Assembly (NCBI GenBank): GCA_017506865.1
Contig: JAFCMP010000002.1
Span: 744,001 to 808,000 of the forward strand
Direction of reading: 5' to 3'
Source of the DNA: Tribonema minus
Taxonomy: Eukaryota; Sar; Xanthophyceae; Tribonematales; Tribonemataceae
DNA: 64,000 nucleotides
Shown: positions 1 through 64,000 of the stretch, one piece after another
Position numbering within the stretch: the stretch's first letter is position 1
How the letters are laid out: the number at the start of each line of letters is the position of its first letter
The notes under the pieces: model-generated
The model's input: the letters and a program-made list of their open reading frames with translations, nothing else
The model's database searches: none
Told to the model about the DNA's origin: nothing
Made by a program: the position numbers and the translations under genes

Positions 1-3000
1 GGCAAAGGAGCTCTGCACGCGCGTCCCGGCGCTGCTGCCGCCCACGCTGCAGCTCCTGCACGCGTCGCTGCTGCAGCGGCGCGCCGCCGCCGCCGCTGCC
101 GCCGCCGCTGTTGCTGCAGCTGGCAGCGACGGCAGCGGCGGCGGCGACGGCAGCGCGCCTTGCGATGTGCAATTGATCAGTGGTGCCGCTGCGGATAGCA
201 TTCTCGGCGCTTTTGCTGACCTGCTTGCTGCCGCGGCAAAGCTGCCCACTGATGCCATCACCGCCGGCTGCGGCGGCGGCGGCGGCGGCGGCGGTGACGC
301 TGCAGCCATTCTGCAGCAATTCGCAGACGGCGCGTCGCTGCCGCCGCTGCTGCGCGCCGCCGCCGCCGCTGCTGCCGCTGATGACACCAGCGTGAGCGCC
401 GCCGTCGCCGCTGCCGTGGCGCGCATCACGCGCACGTGGGCACGCTATCTGCCTGCTGACCGCAGCTGCGCGCTTCTTGAGGCAATTGTTAGCGCATTTG
501 TCCGCGGAGAGCTGCCGCCGCCGCTGCTGCCGGCGCTGGCGGCAGCGCTGGAGGCGGCGCCGCCAGATGCGCCAGCGCTCAGCGCGCCGCTGCTGCTGCA
601 GGAGGCTCTGCCGTTGATGCTCTCGACTGCAGCTGGCAGCGGCAGCAGCAGCGGCGGCGGCGCCGAGGCTGGACGCAGCGCCGCTGCTGCCGCTGCTGCC
701 GCCGCCGCTGCTGCTGCTGCTGCTGCTCAGTGCGTGTGCGCCGTGGTGAACAAGGCTCCAGACGGCGACGCTTTCGATGGCGCCGTTGACGCGTGCCTCG
801 CCGCAGCGGCGCGGAGCACAACAATGAGTGGCAGCAGCGACAGCAGCAGCGGCGGCGGCGGCAGCAGCGGCATCATACTCGTGGCGCTGGTGCGCGCTGT
901 CGCCATGCGCGGCGGCGCCGCTGCGCAGCGGCGCCGCGGCAGCGCGCTCGCTGCGCTGCGCGCAGCGATCTGCGGCAGCAGCGGCGGCAGCGGCAGCGGC
1001 GAGCTTGAAGCCATGAACATCAGCAATGGCGAAGGCAGCGGCAGTGGCAGCGCAGCGGCGGCAATGGCCGCGGCGGCGGCCGTGGCGGCGCTCATGGCGG
1101 ACGCTGATCCCGATGCGCGTCTGCGCGCCGCGCCGGTGTGGCGGCAGCGCCTGTTTGCAGAGCTGTTCCCGGGGCTGGCGGCGGGGGCGCCGGCGCGCGC
1201 GCCGCTGCTCGCCGCGCTGCACCTGGTAGGCAGCGCTCCGGTGAGTTGAGCGCTGATGTAGTTGAGGAGTGATGCTATGTATGACGTTGCAGTGAGTGAA
1301 GGCAGCGAGTGAAGCCGCCTGAGTGGTAAGCTCCATGTGGACAAGTGTATTGGGGTTTGGGCGCATGAAGTTTTGGGTGCGTCTGCGTAGGCGCCGATGG
1401 TGCGGGCTTGAAGTTTGGGTTAGGGTTAGGCTTAGGCTTACGGTTAGGTGTAAGTCTAACCCGGAGATCTCACAGCGAGCTCGAGGTGGCTGATGACGTG
1501 GCTGATGACAGTCTTCTGCTGTCGCTCGCACAACACGCTTCTGATGCGTGAATTTCAAATGGACGAAACACCCACTGGTCACATGTTATATGTCATACAC
1601 ACGTTAATGGGCGCCGTACACGGCATGTTGTTTTTTGGTATGCGAGCGCGCGGACACGGCGTGCGCGTGCGCGCTGCGCAGGTCTCGCAGCGGCTCAAGA
1701 TAGCCGATGACAGTCTTCTGCTCTCCCTCGTGCAAGACACTTCCAGGCATGAAACATCCACAAGCGTACATATATCACCCTAACCCTAACCCTAACCCTA
1801 ACCCTAACCCTAAGCAACCGGCACATCGCATACATTTGAATCACATGCTAATGGCTGCCATTCGCTTGAATCGCACGCTAGTGGCTGCCATTCGTTTGAA
1901 TCACACGCTGATGGCTGCCATCCGTGGCATATTTGTTTTTCTGGCGTGATGCAGGCGGCAGTGGTGTGTGAATACGCCGATGCCGCGTGCGTATGCGCGC
2001 TGCAAGGGCTCGCAGCGGCGGATGCGGCAGTGCGCTCCGCAGCAGTGCTCGCCCTTGGCATCTTCATCAAAGACGACGCGCTGCTGCAGACTCTCGCGCC
2101 CCACACGGGGACCCTGGCGCCCAGGTATCAGAAGTACTTCAAGTACAACATCCCTGCGTAACGTCTACGATAGGGAATGAGCGCTGCTGCAGGTGCTCGC
2201 GCCCCACACGGGGACCCTGGCGCCCAGGTCCTGCAACGTATTTTAGTGTGTTGAAGTGCAGTTGTTGAAGAACGCGACTTGTGAAAGCAGTGGTGGCTGT
2301 CGCTGCATAAAACGTAGGCTCAGGTCTTCATCAAAGACGACGCGTTGCTGCAGACGCTCGCGCCACACACGGGGATCCTGGCGCCCAGGTATAAGAAGTA
2401 CAACATTTTAAAAGTGTTTCTTTTTTTAAAATGCAGTCGCTCAAGTACCTGTCTCGTGAACGCATGGTGGCTTTCCCTGCGTCGAGTTCAGTTTTAGCAT
2501 GATGGCTGTCCCCGGGTTGAAGTTACATTTAGGTCTTCAACAAGGCATAAGCGCTGCTGCAGACGCTGGCGCACCACACGGGGACCCTGGCGCCCAGGTA
2601 TTAGAAGTACAACATTCCTTAAGTGGTTCACTTCGTGAAACGCAGCTGTTGAAGTACGTGTCCATAGGAAGCAGGGTGGCTGTCCCTGCGTTGAGTTCAG
2701 TTTTGGTAGAATGACTGTCCCTGTGTTGAAGTTAGAGTTAGGTCTTCATCAAAGACAGCGCGCTGCTGCAGACTCTCGCGCCACACACGGGGACCCTGGC
2801 GCTCAGGTACTGCAACATTTGCAATGTTTCACTTCATGAAACGCAGCTGTTGAAGTACACATTTTCTGGAATAATAGTGGCTGTCCCTGCGTTGAAGTTA
2901 GGGTTAGGTCTTCATCGAAAACGGCGCGCTGCTGCAGACACTTGCGCCACACACGGGGACCCTGGCGCCCAGGTATTGCAATATTTGAAGTGTTTCATAT

Positions 3001-3836
3001 TGTGCAATGCTGAATCGACTGTCTTGTGAAAGCACTGCAACAGTTGCAGTGTTGCACTTATCTGTACTTTTGTAAGCATTGAAACTGATTTTTAGACGAC
3101 ATAACTAATCAAGATTCAAGACATAGCAAGCACGATTGTGAACACACCCTCCACTGCAGAGCATCACACCTGCAAGCCCCCACTTACACCGTGCGTCTGT
3201 CACAGGTTAGTGGACGTGAGCGCTGATGCGTTTGCAGTGACAAAAACTCAAGTACTTTGCATGTCAGCATGGGTATTTATTTGTAGATGGCAACAAGACA
3301 TTATCTTCCATGAAACAGAAACACGATCACAAACAACCCTCCGCTGCAGCGCGTCACGCCCGCACGCCCCCATCACGCCGCTCGCCTGCCACAGGCTAGT
3401 GGATGCAGCGCTGCACGCGCCGCGGGCGCTCACGCGCGTTCAGTGGTGAAAAACTCAACTATTTGCATGCAAGCATGCGTACTTATTTAAAGACGCCAGC
3501 AACTCGTCTACTTTCAGGAACACGACCACACACAAACTCTTCACTGCAGAGCATCACATTCCCGCGCCCCCAATCACAATGCTCATCGGTTACAGGCTAG
3601 TGGACGCAGCGTGGCACGCGCCGCGCGCGCTCACGCGCGCGCAGGCGCTGCAGTGCCTCATGGCCCTCGCAGACCTGCCCTACGCGCGGCTGCACCCGAT
3701 ACGGAGCGCTGTCACGCGCGGACTCGCAGCAGCGCTCGACGACCGGCGCCGCGCCGTCCGCCAGGCCGCCGTGCGCGTGCGCAACCGCTGGCTGCTGCTC
3801 GGCAGCGGCGGCGGCGACAGTGACAACATCGCTTGA
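1..3836 (+). CDS. MMS19: MMS19 C-terminal part (cytosolic Fe-S assembly, HEAT-repeat protein), 5' end outside window
   Basis: Three exons can be placed: 1-1240 (open at its 5' end, frame starting at base 2), 1952-2124 and 3596-3836 with a TGA stop. Their phases join cleanly (0, then 2+1). The final exon reads ALQCLMALADLP, then AALDDRRRAVRQAAVRVRN, and ends RWLLLGSGG. This matches the MMS19 C-terminus (ALQCMHAL, LDDKKRLVRKEAV, WFLLGS in the human protein, from memory). Exon 1 ends WRQRLFAELFPG, then LLAALHLVGSAP, also MMS19-like. The family is an adaptor that hands Fe-S clusters to DNA-repair and replication enzymes in cytosol and nucleus, and its C-terminal HEAT repeats bind CIAO1/CIAO2B. 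Exon 1 is inflated by Ala, Gly and Ser runs. Both introns are filled with copies of the neighbouring exon edges. Another HEAT-repeat protein is possible but less likely given the ordered C-terminal match. Confidence 0.82.
1400..1925 (+). repeat. Interstitial telomere-like repeats and 32-bp tandem repeat in MMS19 intron 1
   Basis: TTAGGG-like units lie near 1420-1450, and a clean CCCTAA tract lies at about 1778-1813. Right after it, three copies of a roughly 32-base unit (TGGCTGCCATTCG core) occupy 1840-1925. A phrase containing GATGACAGTCTTCTGCT occurs twice, near 1500 and 1705. Confidence 0.85.
2060..2976 (+). repeat. Exon-edge array: six copies of the 3' edge of an MMS19 exon with its splice donor
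   Basis: The true exon ends at 2124 with CTGGCGCCCAG followed by GTAT. Five further decayed copies of its last 50-65 bases, each ending in CAG plus GT, lie downstream near 2178-2231, 2326-2392, 2533-2600, 2740-2808 and 2908-2977. The shared core CACACGGGGACCCTGGCGC is almost unchanged. Sequence between copies differs in length, so only the edge, not a fixed monomer, is well kept. Confidence 0.93.
3188..3650 (+). repeat. Exon-edge array: copies of the 5' edge of the last MMS19 exon with acceptor
   Basis: Two decayed copies (near 3205-3240 and 3390-3448) precede the true exon start at 3596. Each keeps the acceptor ACAG and the following (G)TTAGTGGA or CTAGTGGA coding start, and each is preceded by a related GCAGAGCATCAC or GCAGCGCGTCAC segment. 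Confidence 0.88.
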
Positions 3837-3880: not shown

Positions 3881-3916
<36 letters not shown>

Positions 3917-4032
3917 AGTGACATGGCATGTTCACAGCACAAGTGCTGGCTGCTGCTCGGCAGCGGCGGCGGCGACAATATCGCTTGAGCGACATGTTCA
4001 CAGCGGGACCCAGTGGCTGCTGTGGCGGTAGC

Positions 4033-4071
<39 letters not shown>

Positions 4072-4480
4072 AGTGGCGGCAGCGGCGGCGACAAAATCGC
4101 TCGAGTGGCATGTTCACATCACGAGCGCTGGCTACTGCTCAGCACCGCCGCGGCGGCGGCGGAAGAGGCGGCGGCGGCAGAGGCGGCGGCGGCGGCGGCA
4201 GAGGCGGCAGTGGCGGCAACGGCGGCGACAACATCGCTTTTGAGTGACATGCTCACAGCGGGACCGCTGGCTGCTGCTCGGCAGCAGCGGTGGCAGCGAC
4301 GGTGACAACATCGCTTGAGTGACATATGCACTGTGCTACCACTGGCTGCTGTGAAGCAGCAGCAACGGTGACGGCGGCAGCGCCAGCGGCGGCCGCGGCG
4401 GTGGCGGTGGCGGCGGCTGCAGCAGAAACATGGCATGAGTGAGAAGTTCACAGCACAGACGCGTGCTGCTGCTCGGCAGC
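3784..4480 (+). repeat. Copies of the MMS19 terminal exon edge, stop codon included, with GGC triplet runs
   Basis: The segment coding RWLLLGSGG and the TGA stop is copied after the gene end near 3941-4000, 4120-4180, 4250-4325, 4335-4400 and 4455-4500. Long GGC runs (around 3888-3915 and 4038-4072) separate them. Several copies retain AACATCGCTTGAG around the stop. Because a coding-end/3'-flank junction is copied here, the duplication is not limited to splice-site edges. Confidence 0.85.
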
Positions 4481-6883
4481 GGCGACCGCGGCGGTCACAT
4501 GCTCACTGGGGTTAGCGTCCAGGATTCTGCATGTGGCAATGAGTTGCAGCGCCGCTAAGCCACGGGCGCTGTGCGTCGTGCCGCCATGCTCAACAGCGAT
4601 CGGTGACTGCTGCTTGGGCAGCGACGGCAATGGCAATTTGCCATGAGGATCAGGGTGGGGGTGGGGGTTGCTAGTTAGTAGCAGCTTCCTCCTCCCCCCC
4701 CCGCCCCCCCGCACCAGGAGTTGCCACTGCTGTCCACGTTTGCAGTGATTGGCTGCAGCTGCTTGACAGCGGCGGCAGCGGCAGCGGATGCTCAGCAATT
4801 GCGGCAAGTCAGCGCCACTATTGTAAGCCGGTCAGAGGGGTCAGGAGCTCTGTGACCCTCGCAAACTGTTAGACCTCTGCTGGCCCGGCAACAGCCGTGC
4901 TTGTTGCTGCCGCAGAGCGTGCGCTTTGAGTCGCTGCTTGCACACAGCGGCTGCGGCTATGCAGCTCGTGGCCGCTGCATATCAGGAGCAGCGGACGCCG
5001 CATCACATTGATAGCCTTGCGGAAATCAGTCCTGTACTGCTTACTGCAGTGCTCAGCAAGAATGTTGGCAGCGGGACAGCTGATGAGGAAGAAACACAAA
5101 ATGCTGCCAAGGGCGCTGGCCATAGGGTGCTTGCCTTTGGTGGCCTTCATGCGGTGCTCACCATTGTGTGCCACTGGCACGCATCGGAGTTTGGCTTGGG
5201 TGACAAATGCCGTGTGCAGCGCTCGCGTGCGCGTTGACCGCTGTTATGGTTGCTATGGCGACGAGGTGGCCACGTGGACTTTGTCTCTGCATTTTGTCTC
5301 TGCAAATGGATCGCTGACTGGAGTAGGAGCTGGCAAAGCCAGGGAGAAGGCGGCCTGAGGTGCGCGCGCGCTGTCGGAAGTTCACATATCACAGCCTCGC
5401 AACATACCTGGCAGTCTTCCACTGCGCAGCTACATAAATGCAAATCAGGCGTCACCGGCTAGGCCGAACTTCAAGCTTTAAGCTATGTGCCGCCGCCGCC
5501 CCCGGTGCTGTACTTGCTGCCGATAGTTGGGTGCTGAGCACTGAATGCTTGTCACCTACAACCCCCCTCCACCATGTTGCACAAAGGCATGTCACGCGGT
5601 GGCCATGGCTGATGTTTCCGCCGGCCTTGCAATAATGGAGAACCGCTGTTCTCAGTGTCGTCTGCTTGTAAGCGCGCCCGGATCCCCTGGGTGGTAGATT
5701 TGTGTGCAATCTCTCCTGCCCTGCACTTTTTGTCACCGCGGCTTGAATCGTGTTGTGGCAATGATATGCAGGAGCCTTTGTTAATCCCTTGCAAGGCATG
5801 TATGCCATGAGTGATGGTAATGCGCATTGAGATGCTTTGCCACAAGGGACTTGCAAACTTTGGCAGCAAGCTTGACATCATTCGTCTGGGCTGCTCGTGC
5901 GCCAAGTGAAAAGTAACACATTCCTCGCATCTGCAGTAAGTTGAGCAACTGACACAGTGACAGCATTTGGCAAACTGAACACACATCATCATGCAGACAA
6001 ACAATGGCCAGCGGTAGCAGCAGCAGCAACAGCAGCAGCAGCCCCACTCCTTCTCTGCGCTGCATTGACTATGGAAACACTAGACTTACAGAAGGACTAC
6101 AGATTTTCAAAGGAACAAGCTAATGCACGGCTCTCCACACGCCAGCGACTGCTTATAAATACTTCAACATGGTGCACTTCGACTACTGGGTGCAGCCACT
6201 GAAAGGCTCATCTGCTGCAGGTGAGCCCGGGGGGGGGGAATGTCCCTCTCGCTATCATCAGTGATTCTCAGCGAAGGGCAGCACACCCCCCACACTCATG
6301 TCAGTGACAAGCCCTCAAGCCCCCTTGCACCCGCCCGTTGCCTGCCCAGTGCTCTCCATATCTGGGAGTGGTTCTTAATATTCTGACAGAGTAAGTGCAC
6401 ACCAGCGCGCGCTTTAAGCGGCCCTTCCTTCAGCTGCTGAATGTGCACGCAACACGAGCAGTGCCGCATAGACACAGGGGCGGCGATCCCGCAGTTGCGG
6501 CCGATCACACGCCTCTGGCCGTTCTTCAAGAAACACCATCACTCTACAACTTGAAGTACAGGACATCTACCACCTGCACCGCCCCGGAAAGAAGACAATG
6601 GACCGTACCCCGCTCCCCCGTCCCATGCCCCCATGATCATCGCCCCTTGACCCCCCCCCCTCCCCCTTCTTAAACCCCCCCAACCCCCCAAGCGCCCATA
6701 AAAACATCAGGCATGGTCCAACGGCGGCAGCGGACAGCAGTAGCAGCAGCAGCAGTGCCCAACAGGACTGCTGCCACACGCTTGAATCAAGCACCCACAC
6801 TGCCACTGCTGCCGTTGTTGCCGCGGCACGCCACTGCCGCTGCCACCACATCACCGCCACCTCTCTCCCTCCCCCAAACACAT
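4480..6883. other. Region between two converging genes, no gene recognised
   Basis: This stretch separates the stop codons of MMS19 (plus) and the FAD enzyme gene (minus), so it should hold both 3' flanks. It contains C-runs near 4690 and 6650-6685 and short CAG runs near 6020 and 6740. Its open frames are short and show no recognisable domain. Confidence 0.6.
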
Positions 6884-9800
6884 CTAGTTGAGGCCGCCAA
6901 CTTTGGCCCCCGAACCGCCCACTGTTGCCGACGGCGCGGAGGCATTCGTGATGAACTCCTGGAACTCTGCCTGCTTGGCGAAGAGCTCCGCGTCGACCGT
7001 GGTGGTGGCTACACCGGGGCGCGCGGTGACAGTTACGTTCTTGGCGTTGAGCACTGTGCGGCCCGCGGTGGTGAAGAGCTCGTCCTCACAGGCGATGCGG
7101 TCCCAGAACTCCTGCCAGCCACGCTCCATGGCGTAGACGCCGTACAGCTGTAAGGAGGGTTAGGGTTAGGGTTGGGTAGGTTAGGATCAGGTTGAGAGTA
7201 GGGGTAGGGTTGGACGGATCAGGTCAGGGTTAGATGGTTCGTGGCATGACTCAGACTCAGAACTCCTGCCAGCCGCGCTCCATGGCGTAGACGCCGTACA
7301 GCTGTAAGGAGGGTTAGGGTTAGGGTTGGGTAGGTTAGGATCAGGTTGAGAGTAGGGGTAGGGTTGGACGGATCAGGTCAGGGTTAGATGGTTCGTGGCA
7401 TGACTCAGACTCAGAACTCCTGCCAGCCGCGATCCATGGCGTAGACGCCGTACAGCTGTAACGAGGGTTAGGGTTAGGGTTGAGATAGGTTAGGACCCAG
7501 CACCAGAGTAGGGTTTAGGGTGCGAGTGGGGGTAGGTTGTTGTAGGAGAGGGTTAGGATAGGTGAGAATCAGGGCTAGAGGAGGGTTGGAGAGCAAGTAG
7601 GGTTAGGGTTGAGGTCAGGGGTTAGGTTCAGAACTCCTGCCGCCCGCGCTCCATGGCGTAGACGCCGTACAGCTGTAACGAGGGCTGGGGTTAGGGTTGT
7701 TAGGATCAGGGCCAGAGTTGTGCTAGGGTATGAGAAGGGGTCGGGTTAGACATTTGAGGTCAGGTTCAGGTTTAAAACACCGTACAGCTGCGACTAGGGT
7801 ACGAATTCGACCGAGGGCAACAAGGATATGTGGGGGCAGGTTGAGAGCAGGGGTACACAGGAATAGTCGGTTCATTTGCTAGGGCAAGGGTTGCGGTAGG
7901 GTTTGCGCTCAGACACAACCTAGGGTTAGGGTTACATGCAGGCTGCGCTTCATGACGTAGACTCTGTTTTGACTGTGGTCAGGGTTAGGGCAAGATGTAG
8001 TGAGGGTAAGGCTGCAAGGATTTCGGCATGTCTGCCACTGACCTTCTGGTCGGGGTTGATGCCCCAGAACAGCCACTTGGCGCGGCTGCACAACTGTACC
8101 TGTTGTCAAAGTTAGAATGTTGAGTAGTTTCGGATTTTTGCGATCTATTGCGGGTTTGCTTCAGCCTTTAGCACATGGGTGTATAACTTTCCGGTACAGA
8201 AGAGTTCATCCAGACTTCACAGTCACCTCTCGCATATGCCAAACGCAAGCACTAACCTTCTGGTCGGGATCGATGGCGGTGATGCCTGAGAATAGCCACT
8301 TGGCGCGCTTCGGCAAGTGCTGCCAGATAGTGGAGTAGGCGCAGGCCCACAGCAGCGACGGCGTGAGCCACACGAGGGCGTAGTACGCCGAGACGTGCTC
8401 CAGGTCGCAGTAACCCTGCGGCGGCAGCGGTTACACGAGCAGTTACAGATTTAACAAGTGAAGTACGCGGAGGCGTGCTCCAGGTCGCAGTACCCCTGTG
8501 GTGACAGCCGTTACACAAGGCGGTTACAGATTTTAGCAGGTGAAGCAAGAAGCGTAAGGGCGTAGTACACGGAGACGTGCTCCAGGTCGCAATACCCCTG
8601 CGACAGCAGCAGTTACACAAGCAGTCAGTATGTGAAATGTGCGTCCACAGCAGCGACGGCGTGAGCCATACGAGCGCGTAGTATGCGGAGACATGCTCCA
8701 GGTCGCAGGACCCCTGCGACAGCAGCAGTTACATGAGCAGTTACAGATGTACCAGGTGAAGCTGACATCAATGCACAACAGCAGCGACGTGCGTGCGGGC
8801 GCAGCATGTGGAAACGTGCTCCAGGCTGCAGTAGCCGTGTGACGGCAGCAGTTATGAGATCGGTTACAGCAATGAAGGCGTGAGCCGCACGAGGGCATCA
8901 GTGGGCAAAGACGTGCTCCAGGTCACAATACCCCTGTGATGGCAGCCGTTACACAGTGGAACAGAGTTGAACGCGTGCCCAAAGCAATGAGGCGTGATGC
9001 ACACACAAGTGTGGTAGATGGAGGCGCGCTCGAAGCTGTACCCCTGCGGTGGCAGCCGTTGCGCAAGCTGTTGCAGATCTCCCATATGAAGAGACATCCC
9101 ACAGGTTTAAGTACCCCTGCTGCAGCGGCTGTTTCATGGTTTGCCATATTAACGCTTCTCTCCAACCCATCATACTCTGAGTTCAGAAACCTCATCAGGT
9201 CAGGAGGCGCGAAAGGAGTTGGTATGCATGCAGGTACTTTCTGTGGTCTCTGCTCGGGGCAAACAAAGCCCCGTCTCTATCAAAATGCGCTTTCAAGGCA
9301 GCCCTCAATTCAATCTGTTAAGAGGGCTTCAAATGCACAGAGACTTCCCCCTCTACAACACCACCAACTGTCCACAATCAAATCGCAACAAGGGTGGCCC
9401 CACCGTGCACCTGACCACGCGCCTCATGTGTGGCATGTGCGGTCAGAGTCGTCAAGATGTGTACACCATTGTGTACTTCTCTGTATACTGCAGTACCTTG
9501 AAGTACTTCCAGAAGTTGATGCATGAATACTTGATTGAGTCGTCAAAACGTATACTCCGAAGTACTTCTCGTATTACTACTTTGAAGTTCGTCTTCCAAG
9601 AAGTGAGCACATGAATACTCGATTTGATTGCACACTACACACCATACAATACATGCCTGCACGGAGTAGTTAGTCCATCTATACCGCGAGTACACGAGTG
9701 CTTGATTGATTGTACACAATGCATGCATACTATACATACCTGCACGGAGTAGCCGTATGTGAACAGGCCGCGCAGGTTCAGCAGACCGTTCTTCTCCAAA

Positions 9801-9982
9801 AACTCGTGGATGGTCCACTCGTACTTGAAGTACTTCGTCTCTTTGATCTGCTTCTCGGGGATAGGGTACCCCTTCAGGTTGCCCATGAGCTTCTCGTGGA
9901 TGTCCGCGTACGAGCGCATCGAATACCATACACGGAACAGAACCCAGAACTCGACGTAGGCGGTGAGTTCGCCTGTGGAGGT

Positions 9983-10015
<33 letters not shown>

Positions 10016-13000
10016 GCTCAGTGATTACGAGCGCATCGACCACGGACCACAAATGATAACCCACAGCTCAACGAGGGCGGTGAGTTCGCCTGTACGGAGC
10101 AGCAGCAGCAGCGGCGGCGGCGGCAGTGTTCAGCAACTTGAGGGGAAGTGCGGGTAGGGCATAGGGTATGTAGGGGTGTAGGGTACATGTGTACTTGTGC
10201 TCAGCAGCAGCAGCAGCAGCAGCGCTCAGCATTTCACGGGGCGGGGGGTTCAACGCCATCTGTCACATCCCTCTGTTCCTCTCACCTTCACCGCTGCAAC
10301 TTCAAGTTAACGCCTGTACTGCAAACCACCTCAAAGTGCGGCGCACTCTCGACGTCACGCCACCACTGCTTGGCGGCGAGGCCCCGTAAACAGGAGGCGT
10401 TAATGCCTGCCCTGACTGACACACCGTCTATTTGACCTGCAACTTCATACCTGAACTGATAAACTTCAACTTCACATCTGCACACTCACCGCGCGGCGCG
10501 AACTCGATGGTCTTGAAGGCGTGCCACCACTTCTTGAACTTGGCCTTCATCGCACCCCACGTGAGACGTTTGCGGCACTCCTCGTTGCTTGCCTCCGCGA
10601 CTTGCAACTTCAACTTCACACCTTACTATAAACAAACCTCAACCTGTTTTAAGAGCGCACTCACCGCGCGGCGCGCACTCGATGGTCTTGAAGTCGCGCC
10701 ACCCCTTCTTGAACTTGGCCTTGACGCCCAACATGTTCTCGCCTACGCGACTGTCAACTTCAACTCCAGCTTCACATTCTGGCAATACAAACTTCAACTG
10801 CAAGTTGACACTGCTGCTTCAAACTCACCGCGCGGCCGGAACTCTGCGGTCTTGAAGTCGCGCCACCACTTCTTGAACTTGGCCTTGACCGCGCCCCACG
10901 TGGAGTTCTCCTTGGCGGTCCTCTCATCGTCCGTCAGGCCATCCGGCCCGACCAGCAACACGCCGTCGAGGTTCCCGTCGTGAATGGCGGCGACCATGAG
11001 GCACCACAGGGGGAAAATGATGCCCTCGATCTTGGACTTGTACTCCCCCGCGTAGGGGATCATGTCGGGGTCGATGACGCCGCGGTAGGGGGGCGAGTAC
11101 TTCTCGCCCTCCAGGTTGAAGGGGGTGCCCGCCTGCGTTGAAGTTGAAGATGCAGGTGCGGTGAGAGGCAGCAGCGGGGGTGGTGATGAGCGGTAGGGGG
11201 CGGAGTTCATCTAGGTAAAGGGAGTGCCGGCCTGCATGGGAGCTGCAAGTGTTCTGGTTGGTGGTGAGGTCGGGAGGCAGAAGTGCTGATGAGCGGTTGT
11301 GAAACGTGCGAATGTGTGTTGCATTTGTACGTGCAGAGTATGCAACTAGCGCATTGCTGAAGTTTGGGAAGTCGTTGCGCTTGCGACGCAAGCGTGTGTA
11401 CATCGACGTGAAGGAAACCAACATTGACTATGGCGCTTCTTGTTTGAAACGTGTGTCATGGGGGTTAATCTATGCCGGCCACCAAAGTCCTCGCGTGGCG
11501 TGCGCTGCGCGCGCGAGTGCTGACTCTAATCCTATGCTTAAACCTAACCTTCCACCTATTACCCACGCTTTGGAATGGCAAGCACTGCTCAGTAGCCCAC
11601 ACGTATCACAAAACCCGCAGCCGCACCACGCAATGTCAATGCACCATCGCCCATAGCACAGGCCACAAAACACGTCCATCACCGCGTGTTTAAGCCTGTA
11701 CATATACGTACATACCCGCCACTTGAGCAGTGTGTGCCAGGCAGGCCTCATACACTAGCTCCCTCAGGCGCTACAGATCGCCGGCGATCACAATTAGCGC
11801 GCTACGCAGCACGGTGACGCAGAGCTTCTCCAACTTCACCTGGTACTTGAACATATGGTTGTGTACGCGCCGCGGTGCAGAACAGGGTTTCTGCCCCTCA
11901 AGCGGAAGTGAATAAAGCACTCGTGCATGAGCTCGCGCAGCGACTGGAAGTCAGTGCTCAGGCAGACGAAGCCGTCACTGGAGCGTCACCAACTTCGGAG
12001 AGTACTCGAGCATGAGCTCAGTAGTCGGTGCTCAGGCAGGCGGAGCGTCACCAACTTCACCTAGCACTTGAGCATGAGCTCAGTAGTCAGTGCTCAGGCA
12101 GACATGGAGCGTCACCAACTTCACCTAGAGCTTAGTAGTCAGTGCTCAGACAGACATGGAGCGTCACCAACTTCACCTGGTACTTGAGCATGAGCTCGCG
12201 CAGCGGCTGGTAGTCAGTGCTCAGGTAGCACGTGCCGAGCTCGCACGGCAGCAGCATGGACTGGTTGGTGGGCGGCACTGCGTACACGGTGCGGGTCTTG
12301 CCACCCAGGTTGCCACGCGCTTCGAGCAGCTTCACGTTCGTGTAGCCTGCAAAAGCACAGGTTCGTTAGGGGGTGGGTTGTAAGGGTATGTATAGGGGCA
12401 GAACTGGGGTATGTATATGATACACGGTGCGGGTCTTGCCGCCCAGGTTGCCGCGCGCTTCCAGCAGCTTCACGTCCGTGTAGCCTGCAGGGGCGTTGCG
12501 CACGGGGGGGTTTAGAGTACATGGCGACTAGGGACATGATTGCCATCTATATCGGATAAATCGTGTGCGTCGTGGCGCCCAGGTTGCCTCGCGCTTCGAG
12601 CAGCTTTACGTTCGTGTAGCCTGCGGGGCAGTTTATGGTAGGATAAGTTAGGGCATGGGGGGTTATGTATATGACCAAGCAGTGGGGTACGTATAGCGTA
12701 CACGGTGCGCGTTTTGCCACCCAGGTTGCCGCGCGCTTCGACGCAGCAGCGCGCCTTCCGAAGGGTGGCTGGTGCTGAGCACTTCCTTGAAGTTACGATC
12801 AGGGTCAGTCTGGTGTCACAACCTCAGACCCTCGTGACTTGAAGCACGGTTTCATTTCGGGGCAGACAAGAGTCTTAGCCAGTGGCCTCACAACGAAAGT
12901 GCACCAAAGCATTCATGCGGGCTATGCTCGGTGTCATCCATGACTTTGATGACAAGTACGACATTGTTGAAGTTGAGAGAAGTTGACGCACCTCTCGCGA

Positions 13001-15283: not shown

Positions 15284-15289
15284 GGTGCT

Positions 15290-31114: not shown

Positions 31115-32084
31115 ATTTAGTTATTGCAAGCCCGATTTATCGTGCGCTCAGCCCATGCGGTCCAGGACATAATATACAACTTCAAATACCACTGTGAAAA
31201 AACTGGTGAATTAAACACGCAGATGTGCACGCTGCGCTGCGGCGATGCGTGCCATGAGCCGTGCGCTGCGGTCGCATACCAGCCGCCGACTGATTGCACA
31301 ATAAATATGCATCAGGTTCGTTGTGCTGAGATCGCGCGCACGCTTGCGGCGGTGTGTCGCCTGCGACGCGCAGATGAGCGTGGCAGCGGAGAGCTGGACG
31401 TTCGCAGCGGCTAGCTGTGGAACGCAACCGCAAACTGTCATCAGCCTACGCGATGTCTTCGCGCGCAGCAGTGCGCGCATGCAGGCAGCGCGCCTCGTAG
31501 CTAGCCTCAAATACAACGGGAGCGCATCAAATGCCATGAGCAGGAAAGAAACGGCACGCAATCCTCCGCAGGCTCAAATTGAAGAGAACAACAAATTTGT
31601 ATTGTGTTTGCACAGAACACAGTTTCTCCACCCCCTTCTTAAAAGAGACAACAACCAAACGACACCCTACCTCCTGACCTTCTACTTGCCCACTCTGTAA
31701 AGGCGGCCCCACCATCGGCGAAACCTGCGTAATGACAATTGCTCACTTTCAAATGGACAATGAGCACTGTGCAAGCCAACATGATTGATGTCAGGATGCG
31801 GCTGGTGTCTGCACGCGTCCACCCCCCATCACGCAGAATATGACCCCGATGCTGCCGTCTACAACTGCACACGCGCGCCTCCCCCCGCATTCCCGCCATA
31901 CCTTCAGAGCACTGCGCGTGTGGCACCACAAGCACGGTGTGCCGTTGCGCAGCTGCCGCAGCTGCCCATGGCTGGTGCCTCTCAACGCTGTCGCCGGTGA
32001 CACACTTCAAGCAAAGATCGACCTGACGTTGAGGAGGTCCAACTGCAACTCAACAGCCGGCCGAGAGTGCGCCTAGCGCCACCA
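31115..32084. other. Flank between LINE remnant and the first M8 gene, nothing recognised
   Basis: Both neighbours end here (LINE on plus, M8 on minus). Open frames are short. No terminator-like or repeat structure stands out apart from CAGCGC and TTCAA words. Confidence 0.5.
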
Positions 32085-32680
32085 CCGCGGCGGGACATCG
32101 TCGTTGGCACGGGCCGTGTCACGGAGTCGCTTGAAGTTGAGCTTCAACTTCAAGTGAAAGCTGTGTTACAGAGAGAGCGTCACAACCGCCGTACGCCTAC
32201 AGGCGGCGGCGGGACAGCGGCGTCGGCACGGGCCGCTTCACGGAGTCGCTTGAAGTTGAGCTCAAGCTTCAAATGTCAAAGCTGCACTCACAGCCACCGC
32301 ACGCCTACAGGCGGCGATGGGACGGCGGCGCCAGCACGGGCCGCTTCACTGCGTCGCTGCTCCACATGATGGTGCCGCTCTGCGCGATCTTGCAGTTTTC
32401 GGGGTTGAAGTTGTCGGCCTCGCTGTAGTCAACCTGCGTGAGCAGAGGCGGGAGAGGCAGACTGGTGTGAGTGCTCTTGAACTTTGGAAAATTTAGACTC
32501 GAAGCAGGACTTCGAGCTGCTGTGGTGCCGCTCTGCGCGATCTTGCAGTTTTCGGGGTTGAAGTTGTCGGCCTCGCTGTAGTCAACCTGCGTGAGCAGAG
32601 GCGGGAGAGGCAGACTGGTGTGAGTGCTCTTGAACTTTGGAAAATTTAGACTCGAAGCAGGACTTCGAGCTGCTGTTCGA
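32085..32680 (-). repeat. Edge copies around the terminal M8-A exon and a 153-base tandem duplication
   Basis: The 3' edge of the last exon, including the TAG stop (CTACAGGCGGCG on plus), is repeated near 32200-32250 and 32088-32135. Upstream, 32372-32524 is repeated almost exactly at 32525-32677. This duplicates the acceptor and the VDYSEADNFNPENC coding start, a much younger event than the decayed arrays. Confidence 0.92.
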
Positions 32681-45059: not shown

Positions 45060-45252
45060 CTGCAAGCGTGAGAATTGATCACAGTTGCATCAGGCAGGAT
45101 CCATTGCATGAGAGGTTTCAGCACTGACAGTAGGCACCAAACGCGCCTCGCAGCGGGATCAGCTTCAAGTCAGCAATGGTAGGAAATACGTCATTGTTTG
45201 AAGTGCTTTACCGCCTGAAACTGGCACCCGGCCCGGGGTAGTCGATACGCCA

Positions 45253-48200: not shown

Positions 48201-48561
48201 CTCGAACACGGACGGCTATGCTGCTGGGGTGGGGGAGGACGCGAAGGTCAAGCACCACACCGGCACCTTGACGTCATCTTGGGCTTTTGTGCCATTCGTG
48301 CAGGAGTCGTACGGACGGCTGGGCAAGCAGACAAGCCTTTTTGTTAAGGAGTTGGCAATGCACTCAGCACTGTGCTCAGGGGGGGGGAAGGCAGATGTGT
48401 TACGCAAGGCCGGGTTAGCTAAGCGTCAGATCCACATTGAGCTGAGCATATCGCTGGCGCGGGAGTTGGCGGAGCGCGTCATGGCATACACACGTGGAGC
48501 GCGAATGCTGGGCTGTGTTGCGGCGCCGGTATCCAAACTCCTAGGGCACAGCGCAGACTAG
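45253..48561 (+). mobile_element. LINE (non-LTR retrotransposon) with intact 1102-codon reverse transcriptase frame
   Basis: The frame holds a reverse transcriptase, then a zinc knuckle, then an endonuclease-like domain. RT landmarks are GGLDGLRYEHL (near residue 80), RRPIACSSVWRRL, motif A QLDCENAFNSVD (near 225), motif B QQGDPLGPLYFAV (near 285), and motif C FLDDL (near 332) in place of the common YADD. A CPWRCSDVSPTSTHAISC knuckle lies near residue 880. The C-terminus (GIVLDTSVRAP, VKHHTG, FVPFVQESYGRLG) fits a restriction-like endonuclease of the R2/CRE kind, though the catalytic set is not proven. No LTRs or protease were seen. The true start may lie upstream. The 3' tail continues to about 48660 with a TTTATAAATACAAGTCC end that recurs elsewhere in the window. 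Whether it is active is unknown. Confidence 0.85.
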
Positions 48562-53855: not shown

Positions 53856-56800
53856 CTAAGCGCGGGCCGGCGCCACGCGCGGCGTGGGGCGCACGACCTG
53901 TTCGCTGTTCCAGATGATGGCACCTTCGTCGCGCGATGCACTGGTGCAGACGGCCGGGTCGAAGGCGTCCGCCTTGGTGTAGTCCACCTGCGGCAGCGCT
54001 CAGCAACGGAGATGCATTGCTTTTGTCAGTGCAGAATGGGCGCTGTCACATGCGGTGTGTGGCCTCTGAAGAGCGCAGCTTTGCTGGTACTCACTGGCAC
54101 AGGGCCCCAGCGAGGCGGGATCTGAGGTGCACGCGTGCAGTCTAGCCGACAGAGCTACTAGTATCTTTGTGTGCACGCCGCTGCCGAGAGAAGTCGGCGA
54201 TTCGTAGGGTCATTGCAGCGCGCACTGCAGGGGGCGGGTGTCCGTGCGAGCACGCAAGCCGTTGACCGGGAGCAGCGATTGCTTGGCAGCGATGCACAGG
54301 CGCGCCGCCCAGGACGCCACTGCCAGTGCATCAGCGACATTCGAGTGCGACACCAGACTTTGATGATTTGAAGCTTGGTTGTACGGCGCGTTGCTGTTCT
54401 TGAGCACTGAGTCAGACAATGCAGTTTCATGATGCGCATGTGCTGCGCACGACTGCTCCTTGCCCTGTGTGCAGCAGTTGAAACACAGGCGCTGCATCCT
54501 CTAGGCAATCGATAACTCCACAAAATTCAGGTCCTGCAACGTATAGGGATCACTCTCCGCCGGCCGATTGCGCGAGCTGACTTGTAGCACGCTGATGTGC
54601 AAGCTGCTGCTCAAAGGTGCTGCTGCTGCTGCTGCTACTGCTGCAATAGAGCCAGTTCAAGTTGCCAGTGTTTTAAGTTTGTAGGGCGCAGTGCAGACCA
54701 GGCTGCTGCGTAGGGGCAAACTTCACGATTGCATAGGATACCAGGCCTGCTTTGGGGGGCTTGATAAATACAACTCCACAAGTGCAAGTTTACACAACCT
54801 ACTGCGTGTGTAACTGCTGTAACTGCTGCTACTGCGACAAGGCCATTTGCGGTGGCAAGCGCGCTCACCTGGTACCCCAGGTCCTGCAAGCCTCCACTGT
54901 AGAAGCAGAAGACACCGACAAGCAGCAGCAGTGCTGTCAGATTGGTACCAAGTCTTGTGGGCTCATATTTGGGAAGGCTCCACTGGTGTCCTATGTGGTC
55001 CTTCTTTTTTCGCCCTCGAGCAAAAGCAATAAAGTACTCTTGCCATTTGGCGGTGGCGGCGTTTGAGTGGTCGTCGTTGAGACACGTTCAGACTGTCACA
55101 CGACATGTAGATTCCGTACAGCAAGCTTCTAGTTAGATGCCATTCATCTGCGCTTTTTCGCGCCCTGAGCAAGAATTACTTAAAGGTACTCTTGCAGCAT
55201 GTCATGTGCATGAACAGGTACCAGAAGGCGGGCTGATGCACACGGTCTCGCAGGGCGCTGCGGAGACTTGGCCTGTTGCAGCAGCAAAACAAATGTCGTA
55301 GCCTCACGCACCCTCGGCTTAGATTTGAACCATGTGTGATAGCATCGCGTGTGCCCTATGCTTAGCGCTTGCTGAGCAGTGACCAGTGGGAGCGTCACCT
55401 GCCTTGCCTGCACTTGCACAAAGATCACTCTTGCATGGATCTGGTGGTGTGCGGTGTACTGTTGCAGCAGGAAGAAAATGCCGCATGCCTCGCGCGCACA
55501 CGGCCAACGTTTGCACCATGCTCTACTTTAATTACTTTCGCTTGAGGGGCGAAAGTTCTACTAAAGTACAAGATGGGGGGGGCACATGGAGGAGGACGTA
55601 GGGGAGGATCCCGAGATGCCATTTAGCGGCGGCGGCATTTGAGTGGTTGTCGTTACGACACTTTCAGACTGTCATACGACATGTAGATTCCGTACAGCTA
55701 GATGCCAATCATCTGGGCTTTTTCGCGCCCTGAGCGAGAATTAACAAAAAGTACAAGATATGCAGCTCTTGTGCACCATCATTCCTGGCGGAAGCGCCTG
55801 ATGACTTTTGTGGTTTGGGCTGCCAGAACGGCGACGGCAATGAAATGTCAACTGAGGCTGAAAGCAATGGCGTCACATGATGCAAGCAGCCCTAACCCTA
55901 ACCCTAACCCTATAGACTATAGGGTTGGCAAAATCCGTATTTCTGAAAACCATATACTGATAAAATACCGTATTTTGCCGTATTTTCCGTATATACGTAT
56001 TTCTAAACCGTATCTGACAAACGCATATCACCAGTACAGGCGTTCAAACTTCAACTTCAACTTCAAAAGTGAAGCAGCTAAACCAGACACTTGTAAAACA
56101 TAAATACAAGCAAACACACTTGAAAATAACATCATGTATGTGCGTAATTAGCCTAGTGTAGATATTGCCCTACTCCTTCATCCCCCCATCTGCATGTTAC
56201 ATGTTGACAACCTCTTCCTCCGCCGCCTCCATCACTGTAAGCATGACTTCCTCATCTGTCTTGCGCTCAGCAGCCTTATCATTGCCTTTAATGAACACTA
56301 GCTTCTCACCACGCTCAAGTGCAAGCCTGCTGCGGCACTTAGGGTACACATTGCCCCACAGGGACCAGTTGCGCTCGGTTGCACATGCAGTCACGTGGAA
56401 CGACAGCAGGCGCACTGCCACCCGCGACAAATGAGGAAAATGCTCGCGACCATAGGTCTGCCACCAGCCGCGGCGCATGCTGCTGTCAGCGAGCTCAACC
56501 TTGCCCTTAGGCAGCGATGTACGCTTGGTCAACGTAGGCAACGCAGCCCACATGGGCTCGGGAAGGGGTGCAAGCTGCAACTTGACAAGCTCAGCCTCAA
56601 CAGCCTCTGCATGCTCCCCTCCCCCCAGCTCCAGAAAGCACTCTTGCGCACCCTTGCTCTCTAGCCTGCTGAGTTTACTGAAAGGCAGAAACCACTCCCC
56701 ATCAACCTTATAGGCGTAGACAGGGTCAAGCACATATGCTGCAGGCCACGACTTGTCGAAGTGAGTGTTGTAGCGCCGCTCAAATAGTGGCAGCACAGGG

Positions 56801-59800
56801 GAGCGCTCGACATTGTCAATGTGGTCATCGAAGTCTGCCGCATGCTGCAACAGCTGCTTCCAGATCGGCAGCATCTGACTCAACAGCGGCTTGTCGCTCT
56901 CAACCTGGTGAATGGCATCAGACACAGGCTGCACTAGCTTCTTCAGCGCTGCTGCCTCATCGAAAAAGTATATGCTGCCGCCCGCCCCCGTGCTGGCTCT
57001 ACTGTGGCTGCAGTCGTAAACGCTGCCGCATGTGTGGTGCCCTCAGACACTTTACCCCAGCTGCGGTCGCCAACCATCAGCTTGATGGCCTCCTCGGAGT
57101 CGAGCAAGTCGGAGCAGATGAAGTGCAGGATGGCGAAGCGCGTGGGGCAGTGAGAGCGGACGGCCTTGACTTTGCCGTACTTGAACTTCTGCTGCTCACG
57201 CAGGGCGCTGTGTATGGTCTCTGAGCCGTTGATGGTGTTGGACATCATCAGCGCTTTGCCGTACGCTTTCTTGGACCAGTCGCATCGCGCATTCTTCTCG
57301 CCGTGTAGATCCTTGATGAGAAGGGCCAGTGCGTGAGCCTGGCACCCCAGAAGCAGCCAAGTCGGGTGCTTCTGCTTCATCAGGTCCAGCGCCTTACGAT
57401 TTGCCTGCAAAGTTATTGCAGGTGATGGAAAACATCATGAGGCACTGCAGGCATGTACCAAGATTTGCTCCAGTTTTTATGGCCACAACATGTGCATTTG
57501 CCAGCATACTATCAATTCCTGTGTGAGCTGTGCTACTAACCACGTGTCAAGCGAAGAAAGGGAGCATCTGGATAAGCGCGCAAGCGTGGGGAGCTGGTTG
57601 ACTTGCTTCCATTCGATTTATTACAATGATATGCTGCATTGCATGCACTGCTGGACTTATTGTAGCATATATTGCTGTCATTGCATGCAAATGACGCACT
57701 GGCAAAAAACTTTCACACACCGCAGCAGCTTCTACAGCAGCACGTACCTTGGTATTGTCCATGACCATTCCCAGCAGCCTGTCCAGGTTTCCCCTGGTGA
57801 CCTTCTTCGCCCACCGCATGTGCAGCTCCTCGATCCACTCCGCATTCTTGCAAACGCCTCGCGCTGGCTCCGTTGTCACGAAGTAGGAACCGCCCTTTGG
57901 CAACAGTGCGCAAAGGTTAACCAGCGGAGTGCCGTCTCCGCAATGCTTGCGCCTCCACCCATCGCTGGCAAGCTGGACGAGGTGCAAGGCATCGATCGCT
58001 TCCCAGACGTCGCGGCTGACGCGGTCGTGCTCCTTGTTCAGCATTGTCCCGGCCAAGGCTTTGCGGTTAGGCAGGTCGGCGCCAAGGGCAGCGAATGCTG
58101 CAACCAAGTCCTCCTGCTCAATCAGGTGGAACGCCACCCCGGACTTGTAGAAGAAGCGGGCAAGGCTGTTCCGTGCTTGAGTTATCTGGCCTGATGTAGC
58201 CATGTAAGGTGTGATGCCAGCAGCACCGCGGTGGCGTTTAGTGCCAGTCACCTCTACTTCCTCCTCGCCATCGCCAGCAGCAGCAGCAGCAGCGGCTGCT
58301 GCTTCGGCAGCAGCAACAGCTGCTGCACTGGCAGCAGTCGCTCTGAGGCATGCCTTGCTCTTAAGATGGTCGTTTGCTGCGCGCGAAGGGTTGCTGGCAC
58401 CTAGCTTGGCTGAACAACGAAGGCAAACAAGCCGCACCTCGTGCTTCACTGAGTCCAGCTCGACACTGAATGACCCCCACCAGCCCGCCTGACCTTGGCG
58501 CTTTTGATCACAACGCTTTTGATACAATGCTCTGGCCTGCTTGGCCAGGTCGGGGCCAGGATCGGCGGCATCCGCCATGCTGCACTGCTCTGTGTGACTT
58601 GAAAGAAGGAAATACGGCAAAATACGAATTTTGGCGCGCCAGAAATTGACATACGGCGTAGATACGGCGTATATACGGATGTACGGTGTATCTACGGAAT
58701 ACGGTGTTGCCAACCCTACCTATAGTGCATGCAACTAGGTGTACACAGGCACCACGCAGGCGGCCGCGCTGTCAGAGCCCTATTTCATGAATGTGCGTCA
58801 ATGGCATTTGCTTGCAAGGCTAAAACCTTGTGCAACGCTTACTATACAGGGAGCTGTACTAGGTTGTGCGCTGCCACTAGGCCTCTGATGAACTGATGGT
58901 TGCAGCTGCCAGAAAACACCGCGTATGAGTAGCAGTCCAGGACTGACGGTCAGTGTTTCAACTCGACGTGAGACGAAACTCACATGGTGATGACGCTCAG
59001 CTCAGAGCCCGGGCCGTTGAGGTAGCCTGTTGAAGATGTAGGCGGATGATGCGTGTCGCGTGATTAGTGGCATACTAGTGTGCACCAGGATGACAGATGC
59101 GTGTTGGCAGCATTGAGCATCTCTTTGACGTGGCAAGGGCCGGCTTTGAGCGCTGAGGCGCCAGGTTTTGTACAGGTGCATCGCCAGTTGGGTGGCAGCA
59201 CTGCTCGACTGCTTCACTATGCTTGGTCCTGTGTAATGAGGGTTCAAGACTGAGTGCAGCGTAACAGGTAGCGCCACAGTCTCAACAAGGGTGCGCACAC
59301 ATGAATTGTACACCGCTGTGTTCATGAATTCACGGCTGCGCTGATTAAACTCCTCCATGCACAAGCATTAATGCAATTGCAGATGTCACAGGCGGCAAGG
59401 GTGACAAGAACCATCTGGATTTTCTCATAAATCGTTGGAAAACGCAAATAGCACTGTGCGAGCATGACCTAGAAGGATGGGCGGCACAGTTCTCGGTGAT
59501 GTAGTCACTCTCCATGTGTGTATGCTTTGAATTTCTTGATTGCATTAACGTTGTAGCATACATTATCGCACCGTTGGATACAGTTGGATACACAGCGTGA
59601 CGGGTACTTGACTACAGCAGAGTTCTTCTGTGTTTGTGCGTGTAGAAAGCTCACGCTGCTCACTGCTGCAGCACACAGTATGAATGCATAGTGGCATTGC
59701 AGCACTGTCGGATGGATGCATGTCATGACCTGCAGTGACCTACAGCAGTGCTTTTCATAAGCATGCATGTAGAATGCGCGCGCTGCTCACTGCTGCAGCA

Positions 59801-62800
59801 CGCGGCGCGTACGGTATGTATAGAGACCTCACCTGTCATGAGCTCCGTGCACAGCTGGGCCTGCGTGTGTGCAACGAAAGTAGGCCAGTTTACGGCAGAT
59901 GAGGTGGCGTTTTGGCGCTGCATGGCGGCAGCAATTGGGTGCCTGTTGGCTTCCAACATCTTCAAGTTCAACATCATAACTGTAACATTGCAGCTCAACA
60001 CTGAAGTACGGTCAAGGGCTTCGTGCAAGCTTGTTGGGCACGCTATATGCTGTACGTACATGCATGCATCGGAGGCCATGTCTCCCCCCACCTCCAGTTA
60101 CAGAAGTAGCAGGCCGCGCTTCCCTCCACTACTAGTTACAGAAGCAGCAGGAATGTCAGCACAAGGCATCTCCCCCCCTCCCCCCCCCCCAAACTGTAAG
60201 CTGCGCGAGTGCTTCCATGCCAAGCACTGCACTCGTCAACTTGAAGAAGAATGGGCAAAACGCGTCTGTGTGCCCCCCCCGCCCCCCTATCCACCAGACT
60301 TCAACTTGAAGCTGCGTGAGTGCCATGCTAGCACTGCATTCGTCAACTTGAAGAAGAATGGGAATTCACTTGCATGCCAGGTGAGCACTGCACGATCGAC
60401 GTTGATGCTTGTTGCGCTCAAACACACTCCTCATCTGTCTCGGCACGTCATGTGCTTCGTCCAATGACAGTTGACAGCAGGCTCAAAAAGTGCATGGCAC
60501 CCCCTCATGCTAAAGGCAGCGGTTGTGCGGTCAATGTATACATACATACCACCCCCACTATATGTGTGTTGAAGAGTAAGAACTGATAATCCATACGGCC
60601 TGAATGCAAATAAACATAGAGTAGCTGGCACGTCAGTGCACATCGGGAGAAGAAGACGACACCATGCGGGCGGCACTGCTGTTCTATGACACACATTGTT
60701 CGAACCGAGTGGCAGCCTTCAGCATCATCACGTAACCCAGCCCTTACCCTTATATAGTTGTAACCCTCAGACTTTCAGTGAGTGTGCCCTTTCTCTACCC
60801 TAATATTACTACCAAGTACTTTGAAGTATTATAAATATCAGGCTATAGAAGTAGATTCTTTCAACTTGAAGCCCTGTGAGGAGGTCTTAACAACACCTTT
60901 GTCTGTGGTCATAGAGCCGGCGGAATACGCTATCTACTGCAGCAGTGCTCACGCAGTACTTGACCCTGCCACTATCCCCCCCCCCCCCCCCCCCTCTTCC
61001 AACGCACCCTGTGGACATAAAGTAAGAGCTTGCACACACAAGTCTTTTCGACCACTGTGGACATGGTGGCACTGTGTGACACGTGGCCGATGACCGCAGC
61101 AGCGGCGACCACGGATATTGGTGGAAGGCACTGGCGGCTCACCACACTTTGTCGCCTAGAGCTCTACGATCTTTTGATTCGTTTCCCCAAAGTATGGCCA
61201 GAGGGTCAGGGTTAGGGTTAGGGTTAGGGTAAGGGTTAGGTGGTGATGCTCACCTCGTCCCAGTGACCACACGCAGTTCCGGGTCTGCCATTTGCCTCTG
61301 CGCAACAAGAGAGGCGATCGATGAAAGGGGAGGTTTCAGCTTTACAGGCAGACACCAGACGCATATTCATCATTTATGTATCGCTGAACCCAAGCAGCTG
61401 AGGGTGACAGTCCAATGCGTTGGTAGCGAGCACCACCGTAACGTTGTATACCGCCGGTAGTTCTGGTGACACATATGCCGTACAGCAAAGTTCAAGTTGC
61501 TGAGTGCAGCACTGCCAATAACAGTGAAAACTGAGCACTGCTGCTGTTGTGCCTGCCTGACACACCAAAGAGTTGTATACCGTCCACAGTACTTGTGGAC
61601 TTGTGTTTATAACTGCCCAAGAAAGGCCGAGTTGCCTGTGCAATTGAAGAGTTTGCTCTAACGCAGCAGTCTAGTCTGCACTGCGCCCTAGGAACTCGGA
61701 TACCGGCACTGCAACACAGCCCAACATTCGCGCTCCGCGTGTGTACGCCATGATGCGGTCTGCCAACTCCCGCGCCAACGAGTACTGCGCCCTAGGAGCT
61801 TGGAGACCGGCGCTGCAGGACAGCCCAGCATTTGTGCTCCGCGTGTGTACGCCATGATGCGCTCCGCCAACTCCCACGCCAATGAGTTCTGGTGGCACAT
61901 ATGCCGTACGGCAATATTGCTGAATGCAGCACTGCCAATAACAGTGGGAGCTGCTGTAGCTGAGCACTGCTGGCAATCTTACCTAGTTCAAGTTGCTCGA
62001 TCCCCAGCTCCGCGGCCTTCACTTGAGCGTAGCACGTGCCGGTGTGGCCGTCGTCGTAATAAGCACGGGCAGTCGTGGTGGAGCTTGAGCTTGGGACCAC
62101 GCACATACCGCCGCAGGAGGCGGTGGTCGTGGGCCAGACCGTACCAACGCCTGCGCAGCGCTCAGCGTCGGTCACAAAGCCTTATTAGCGTGCATCAGGA
62201 TGCTAGATGTGTGCAGTGCTCAGCGTCATTCGGTCACGAAGCTTACTAGCGTGCATGAGAATGCTAGATGCGCGAGGCGCTCAGCATCGGTCCCGAAGCC
62301 GCTTCTTAGCGCGCATCAGGATGCTCGATGTGCGCGGTGCTCAGCGTCGGTCGTGAAGCGGCATATTAGCGCGCATCAGGTTGCTAGATGTGCGCAGCGC
62401 TCGGCGCCAGTCAGGTTGCGGCTTGTTGAAGCGCATCAGGATCCTACATGTGCATATCAATGCCCGCGCAGCGCTTGGTGACGCGTCACATTTGGCATGC
62501 ATCACGATGACAGCTGGATGCGCGCATGTTGAAGTCCAGGGGCAGTTACGTGCGCAGCGCTTCTGTGAAGTGGCACTTGAACGCGCACGCGGTTGATGAC
62601 TTTGTGTGCATCGGGGCACGAAGCGCGCGTGAGCGCCGCTGCAAGGCCGGCGCAGTGCTCAACGCTGGGCGTGAAAAGGTATACTTCTGAAGCACTCCCG
62701 AAGTAGTAGCGTGCATTAGGAGGATGGCCGTGCATGCGTGTTGCGGGTGCACGAGATGCAGGCAGCCACGGCTGCAAGGCCTGCGCAGTGCTCAGCGTCG

Positions 62801-64000: not shown

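Follow-up and report, generated by a model that had tools for sequence, protein, structure and literature searches.

Single cases of tandem duplication across an exon-intron boundary have already been published. In the potato RdRp gene, such a duplication was described together with a second, 83-bp duplication inside the first intron (PMC4974935), and in Drosophila, novel intron positions were attributed to sliding or tandem duplication (PMC2891723). Researchers have also described small tandem duplications that form at double-strand breaks by fill-in and end-joining, and these breaks may arise from nearby nicks on opposite strands (PMC8355091). Intron growth and the origin of new splice sites have so far been argued mostly from single cases. 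Here, we analyzed a 64-kb stretch of the Tribonema minus genome (assembly GCA_017506865.1, contig JAFCMP010000002.1, positions 744,001 to 808,000; the whole stretch is called the window), for which an original prediction had proposed that introns are built from decayed tandem copies of the exon edges beside them. Our counts confirm that these same-sided exon-edge arrays are real, and most copies resemble tandem duplications with a unit of about 150 nt, running from the exon across its edge into the intron.

In the window, 20 exons were tested, comprising nine homology-supported exons of an FAD-oxidoreductase-like gene, two exons of an MMS19-like gene placed by continuity with a Pfam-matched exon, and nine exons from the gene finder alone. 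Using 40-nt pieces and ungapped matches of at least 26/40 at most 1.6 kb away, we found own-side copies at 23 of the 40 edges (67 copies in total), whereas the opposite side of the same 20 exons gave 0/40 matches and the exon centres gave 3/40. All eight spans that the original prediction regarded as clear cases contained edge copies. The arrays it described were therefore verified, but its figure of more than 20 exons was not, as at least one edge was copied in 15 of the 20 exons tested. It was right that the near edge is copied with its splice site, that introns are lengthened by the copies, and that this is not whole-exon duplication.

To obtain a larger sample, the window was extended by 100 kb on either side to 264 kb of continuous sequence, out of a genome of 158 Mb in 554 contigs. 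A seeded gene finder predicted 730 exons there, of which 120 passed a coding-score filter and were at least 110 nt long. With 45-nt edge and centre pieces, matches of at least 29/45 and flanks of 2 kb, 5' edges were matched upstream in 45/117 cases vs 7/116 downstream, and 3' edges downstream in 50/116 cases vs 12/117 upstream, while random 2-kb stretches used as control gave about 1-2% (5' pieces 20/2294, centre pieces 42/2284, 3' pieces 30/2287). Thus, the enrichment of same-side over opposite-side matches, which had been proposed as a check, was obtained, and the pattern extends through the 200 kb flanking the window. Exon centres were matched rarely (10/117 upstream and 14/116 downstream), so the earlier statement that the centre is never copied was too strong; the centre of a short exon can be included because the copies reach 30-99 nt into the exon. 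A replicate on 22 exon loci from 12 contigs, taken from a Pfam search for ABC transporters, gave matches upstream of 6/22 5' edges and downstream of 8/22 3' edges (14/44 same-side), while opposite sides (0/44) and centres (0/44) gave no match; in-frame stops in 6/22 of these exon models make their frame or boundaries approximate, and some loci are near neighbours and not all independent. In addition, a helicase search showed, in one gene on contig C157, one exon match followed downstream by two shorter matches that end alike. Low-complexity windows were kept in these three same-side tests (window, 264 kb and ABC) and skipped in the counts of spacing, unit starts and local arrays below.

The spacing between copies peaks at 100-180 nt, and 56 of 64 exon-starting repeats begin 30-99 nt inside the exon, with three deeper and five shallower (unit starts and the edge profile were taken from exons of at least 150 nt, with no centre filter). 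Among the 30 nearest copies with at least 40/45 identity, in 18 the exon and intron parts together made up at least 0.9 of the spacing, with an intron score of at least 29, for example 70 + 51 nt for a spacing of 120 and 68 + 87 nt for 157. This count, like those of splice dinucleotides, flanks, codon differences, polarity, spacing modulo 3 and Tandem Repeats Finder (TRF) arrays, was made on 105 of the 120 exons, as 15 with repeated centres were excluded. An exact 2.0-copy duplication of 153 nt with 1 nt over was found at 32370-32676, and its single-nt leftover is suggestive, but only suggestive, of break repair with little homology. This case and the 18 nearest copies have the form of small tandem duplications, that is, adjacent direct copies whose homology about equals their spacing. 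Whole-exon duplication does not fit the opposite-edge and centre counts of the window or the place where the units start. Edge copies with intron sequence carry the adjoining splice site along. The probed units are of local origin: in searches of the whole genome, three probes (one edge unit, one spacer that matched itself alone, and one edge unit with six local matches) matched their home loci only, among the matches listed, and these counts are lower bounds. The special outward junction-copying process suggested originally was not supported, as most of the recent copies next to an exon have the look of plain tandem duplications, similarly spaced duplications are also found away from edges, outward polarity is weak, and one array copies what we read as the stop-codon end of the MMS19-like gene.

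Once formed, the outer copies behave as intron, as shown by the decay of their splice dinucleotides and by their frame-blind spacing. The splice dinucleotide was retained in 37/41, 28/34, 18/32 and 21/51 copies by falling similarity class, where identity squared (our own arithmetic) gives about 0.91, 0.75, 0.62 and 0.49, so the dinucleotides decay about as expected of neutral sequence, and young copies are spaced evenly over the three frames (modulo 3, 17/15/17). The copied splice sites, proposed as decoys, thus decay about neutrally, and no function was shown for them. The expected gradient, with copies most alike near the exon, amounts to a slight trend: the nearest copy was closer to the exon in 21 arrays and the farthest in 13, with seven ties (p = 0.05), but the array at 39210-39804 is reversed, its outermost copies being most alike, and looks youngest at its far end.

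We consider it probable that small tandem duplications of about 150 nt recur in this genome, that many of them span an exon edge, and that splicing drops the outer copy, the leftover of which decays as intron. Such duplications would arise again and again, and many would take in mostly 30-99 nt of the exon together with the splice site and the neighbouring end of the intron. As the splice site of the copy sits on the intron side, the outer copy could be discarded while splicing keeps the original junction, leaving frame and protein unchanged, and the use of that original junction is what we infer from sequence. The duplicate would then decay as intron, and further duplication or unequal exchange among copies would produce arrays and longer introns. 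The duplications themselves may be made by break repair, in which staggered or paired nicks are followed by fill-in and end-joining.

Several observations weigh against this account. Most exons were predicted by a gene finder of our own making, which can itself call copies of coding edges exons, and the junctions taken to be in use were read from sequence rather than RNA. Half of the ABC same-side matches (7/14) rest on exon models with in-frame stops, and without these models 2/16 and 5/16 are left. Ten of the 30 nearest copies fall well short of the spacing (e.g., 68 + 11 nt for 147) and two more have only weak intron scores, and the scoring of intron extension is permissive, with random controls reaching 76 nt at the 95th percentile. 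The intron flank of the original is recognizable in 18/41 copies (at least 41/45), and that of the original or another copy in 27/41; with such incomplete flanks, plain duplication needs later rearrangement for the rest. Moreover, a stricter exon set was enriched in edge-touching arrays just two-fold (27/82 vs 13.6 expected), close to what could result if copies anchored on a conserved exon stay visible longer, by our own estimate 1.5 to 2-fold. Finally, copies with at least 38/45 identity in the 264 kb differ from their exons by 150 synonymous and 90 nonsynonymous changes, a synonymous share of 0.62 vs 0.42 expected if the copy is neutral and the synonymous sites of the exon evolve freely; neutral decay does not predict this excess. 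In less similar classes the share is 0.47-0.51 vs 0.42-0.45 expected; the excess is present in single-copy (0.59) and multi-copy (0.64) arrays alike, and a control for codon phase in the intron flanks shows no phase preference. A cause in the mutation spectrum or CpG was rejected, as correction for base and CpG rates leaves the excess standing. Either some copies were under coding constraint, or exon edges acquire synonymous changes from the copies by exchange; gene conversion that carries copy sequence into the exon would be one possibility.

Arrays at exon edges are over-represented by 2 to 7.5 times over random placement across tests. TRF arrays touched long-exon edges in 15/50 cases vs 5.8 expected, and local arrays in 60/99 vs 18.7 (local-array, exon-masked and random-duplication counts used all 120 exons or the subsets named); the FAD and MMS19 exons gave 8/10 vs 2.6, and the ABC loci 12/29 vs 4.75. 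With exons masked, so that non-exonic copies only were compared, an edge-derived copy was present in 50/113 arrays vs 14.2 by random overlap and 6.6 in a random-duplication model, and the centre control gave 5/113. We prefer the reading that the duplications arise by a general process and are in some excess at exon edges, and this excess can itself be read in two ways. Exon-intron boundaries might be true mutational hotspots, at which a unit of roughly nucleosome size (about 65 nt exonic and 85 nt intronic) is duplicated, for example at nicks set by chromatin phasing or transcription; this would be a main source of intron growth in the lineage and would supply spare splice sites, and exchange between exon and copies would speed synonymous change at exon edges. 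We put this forward tentatively. Pure survivorship, which we consider rather unlikely, would need no hotspot: small tandem duplications would fall at random, those inside exons would be purged, and those spanning an edge would be tolerated and, their exon side being conserved, stay recognizable longer. It agrees with the 45/113 arrays that are free of any predicted exon and have a median spacing of 144 nt, vs 158.5 nt in edge arrays, and with the array past the last MMS19 exon, which copies what we read as a stop-codon end and not a splice site; we count both against a splice-specific cause. The two-fold enrichment of the stricter exon set also suits survivorship, and the limit of the exon part could stem from the unit needing enough intron for a working acceptor. 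However, selection alone predicts same-sided copies and not by itself an excess over intron interiors, and with exons masked, arrays derived from edges remain in 3.5- to 7.5-fold excess. Missed short exons do not account for the other arrays either, as 18 of the 63/113 arrays with no long-exon edge copy overlap a predicted short exon, where 15.3 are expected by chance. In addition, most units start 30-99 nt inside the exon, although smaller exon parts should be tolerated equally well or better.

The synonymous excess would also fit copies that serve as functional alternative exon ends or cassette mini-exons under selection, and so would the comparison of copies with each other (228:256 overall, 28:17 among the closest). 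A few copies lie between a plausible acceptor and donor, such as one 3'-edge copy some 9 kb upstream of the window; the inner boundary of 3'-edge copies has an acceptor-like score above 2 at a rate of 0.65 vs 0.45 in the control (n = 40) and at 0.80 vs 0.49 in the closest copies (n = 20), and 6/9 donor-like boundaries of 5'-edge copies are in phase 0. Nevertheless, strong opposite splice signals (above 4) at 3'-edge copies equal the control (0.07 vs 0.07), the lengths of 3'-edge copies are not biased to multiples of 3 (7/26), spacing modulo 3 is flat, splice dinucleotides are not clearly kept beyond neutral expectation, and the synonymous share in the FAD and MMS19 exons is just 0.52 (33:30). 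Three individual examples are suggestive, but bulk support is slight and mixed, and we consider functional copies improbable. The Rogers model, in which an intron is gained by tandem duplication of an exon segment bearing AGGT, shares with our data the clear involvement of tandem duplication. It reportedly places a copy of the upstream exon end at the 3' end of the intron and a copy of the downstream exon start at its 5' end, whereas the matches here are mainly same-side, many of them with intron sequence, and the opposite flank gave 0/44, 0/40, 7/116 and 12/117 when each edge was compared with its own other flank (a comparison that does not align the intron ends across the intron). This pattern already contradicts the model, which has very little chance of being correct. 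Equally hard to credit are introners or another mobile element carrying splice sites; introners are reported to be disproportionately common in aquatic lineages (PMC9860276), but the repeated part here is the neighbouring exon's own sequence, and the three probes matched their own locus only in the 158 Mb, among the matches listed. An assembly artefact could produce identical copies, as in the 153-nt duplication, but most copies diverge to graded degrees with private differences, and same-side copies occur at loci on several other contigs, so that this cause is highly unlikely.

The proposed recurrent small duplication, followed by splicing out of the outer copy, can be set beside the systems described so far. 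The potato RdRp duplication was a single event that gave a new intron and exon (PMC4974935), whereas here many edges are affected, on both sides and often by more than one copy, and the outer copy seems to turn into intron. The Drosophila case resembles ours in that coding sequence is tandemly duplicated and one copy intronized, but it makes new intron positions at proto-splice sites (PMC2891723), whereas here existing introns are lengthened. For the duplications at double-strand breaks, the introduction of that paper describes short insertions (<100 bp) and makes no link to exon edges (PMC8355091), compared with a unit of about 150 nt here. Introners likewise remodel introns genome-wide in protists, but they form dispersed families (PMC9860276, PMC7789003), in contrast to our three probes, each matching its own exon's locus only among the matches listed. 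We found no report of genome-wide exon-edge arrays in the open-licence PMC literature searched; single boundary-spanning cases being published already, it is the genome-wide pattern that is apparently new within this literature. Junction duplications have left layer upon layer in many introns here, and the conserved exon provides an internal standard for reading them, so that one can measure how fast such duplications arise, how large their units are and how well they survive. This record also raises the question of how the spliceosome picks the right one among several nearly identical splice sites. For annotation, it is a warning that gene finders can mistake copied exon edges for real exons.

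In the window, the MMS19-like gene lies at 1-3833 on the forward strand; one of its exons (frame 2-1246) matches Pfam MMS19_C with a score under the curated cut-off, whereas neither of the two exons used here is itself matched by Pfam. Its next-to-last exon (1955-2124, boundaries from the gene finder) is the source of a 3'-edge array of five copies with the donor in the downstream intron (2188-2972, starting at 2188, 2349, 2558, 2767 and 2933; 37-38/40). The 5' edge of its last exon (3596-3832) has one copy at 3395-3434 (36/40), and six GC-rich copies of the end of this exon lie beyond the gene on the same strand at 3951-4796 (27-33/40, of which the weaker ones may be low-complexity). We read this last array as copying the stop-codon end (the stop, read by eye, falls just after 3832) and not a splice junction, and edge arrays may extend beyond splice junctions.

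The FAD-oxidoreductase-like gene (6884-15287, reverse strand) was delimited by splice sites and homology and has at least nine exons, nine of which have clean splice sites. The protein from seven exons matches metagenomic FAD oxidoreductase-like proteins (P0001, 42% over 46% of the query; P0003, 33% over 69%; three of the 18 matched proteins were inspected), and the order of all nine exons, including two outside the query, fits P0001 in a by-eye comparison. Exon 6884-7147 has three copies of its acceptor and 5' edge at 7262-7672 (37-39/40, 154-nt period), and the tract upstream of this acceptor is made of telomere-type repeats. Exon 8257-8415 has five 5'-edge copies at 8456-8933 (29-36/40), exon 9740-9972 one 5'-edge copy at 10050-10089 (30/40), and exon 10829-11132 two 3'-edge copies at 10490-10704 (each 33/40). 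Exon 12177-12346 has two 5'-edge copies at 12445-12620, with an extra family member at 12678-12739 (85% to the copy at 12400-12461), and one 3'-edge copy at 11914-11953 (32/40), beside a TRF array at 11980-12178.

The remaining arrays belong to exons predicted on the reverse strand. Exon 18127-18225 has three 3'-edge and five 5'-edge copies (17769-19432), exon 23124-23300 six and three (21996-23979), exon 24617-24743 two and two (24222-25094), and exon 27745-27894 three and five (27260-28499), while exon 25869-26027 has one 3'-edge copy and one identical (40/40) 5'-edge copy (25655-26219). At exon 32309-32433, the 100% identical 153-nt duplication covers the 5' edge (32370-32676), and two 3'-edge copies bring the array to 32082-32676. 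Two 3'-edge copies of exon 38571-38723 lie at 38283-38469, and five of exon 39734-39868 at 39200-39677, with a 111-nt period and the outer ones most alike. Predicted exons within 38571-39868 carry an HEMGH motif that is putatively metalloprotease-like.

Telomere-type CCCTAA/TTAGGG repeats occur inside the contig, some of them intronic (window 1777-1813, 7155-7180, 34191-34220 and 61202-61240), and two other contigs, C2 and C3, start with a TTAGGG-type telomere repeat. Together with the red-type look of two rbcL-like fragments described below, this points to a probable alga whose plastid is red-derived; a chlorarachniophyte with a GC content of 27% (PMC12730881) does not fit. A 26-nt minisatellite array at 41063-41551 touches no predicted long-exon edge. 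Transposon remains, with a reverse-transcriptase frame (PF00078) and an hAT dimerisation domain (PF05699), were found at 45202-48558 and 56200-57042. Elsewhere in the genome, two decayed rbcL-like fragments, L025 on contig C334 and L026 on C112, lie on non-plastid contigs and are presumably red-type, judging by their motifs.
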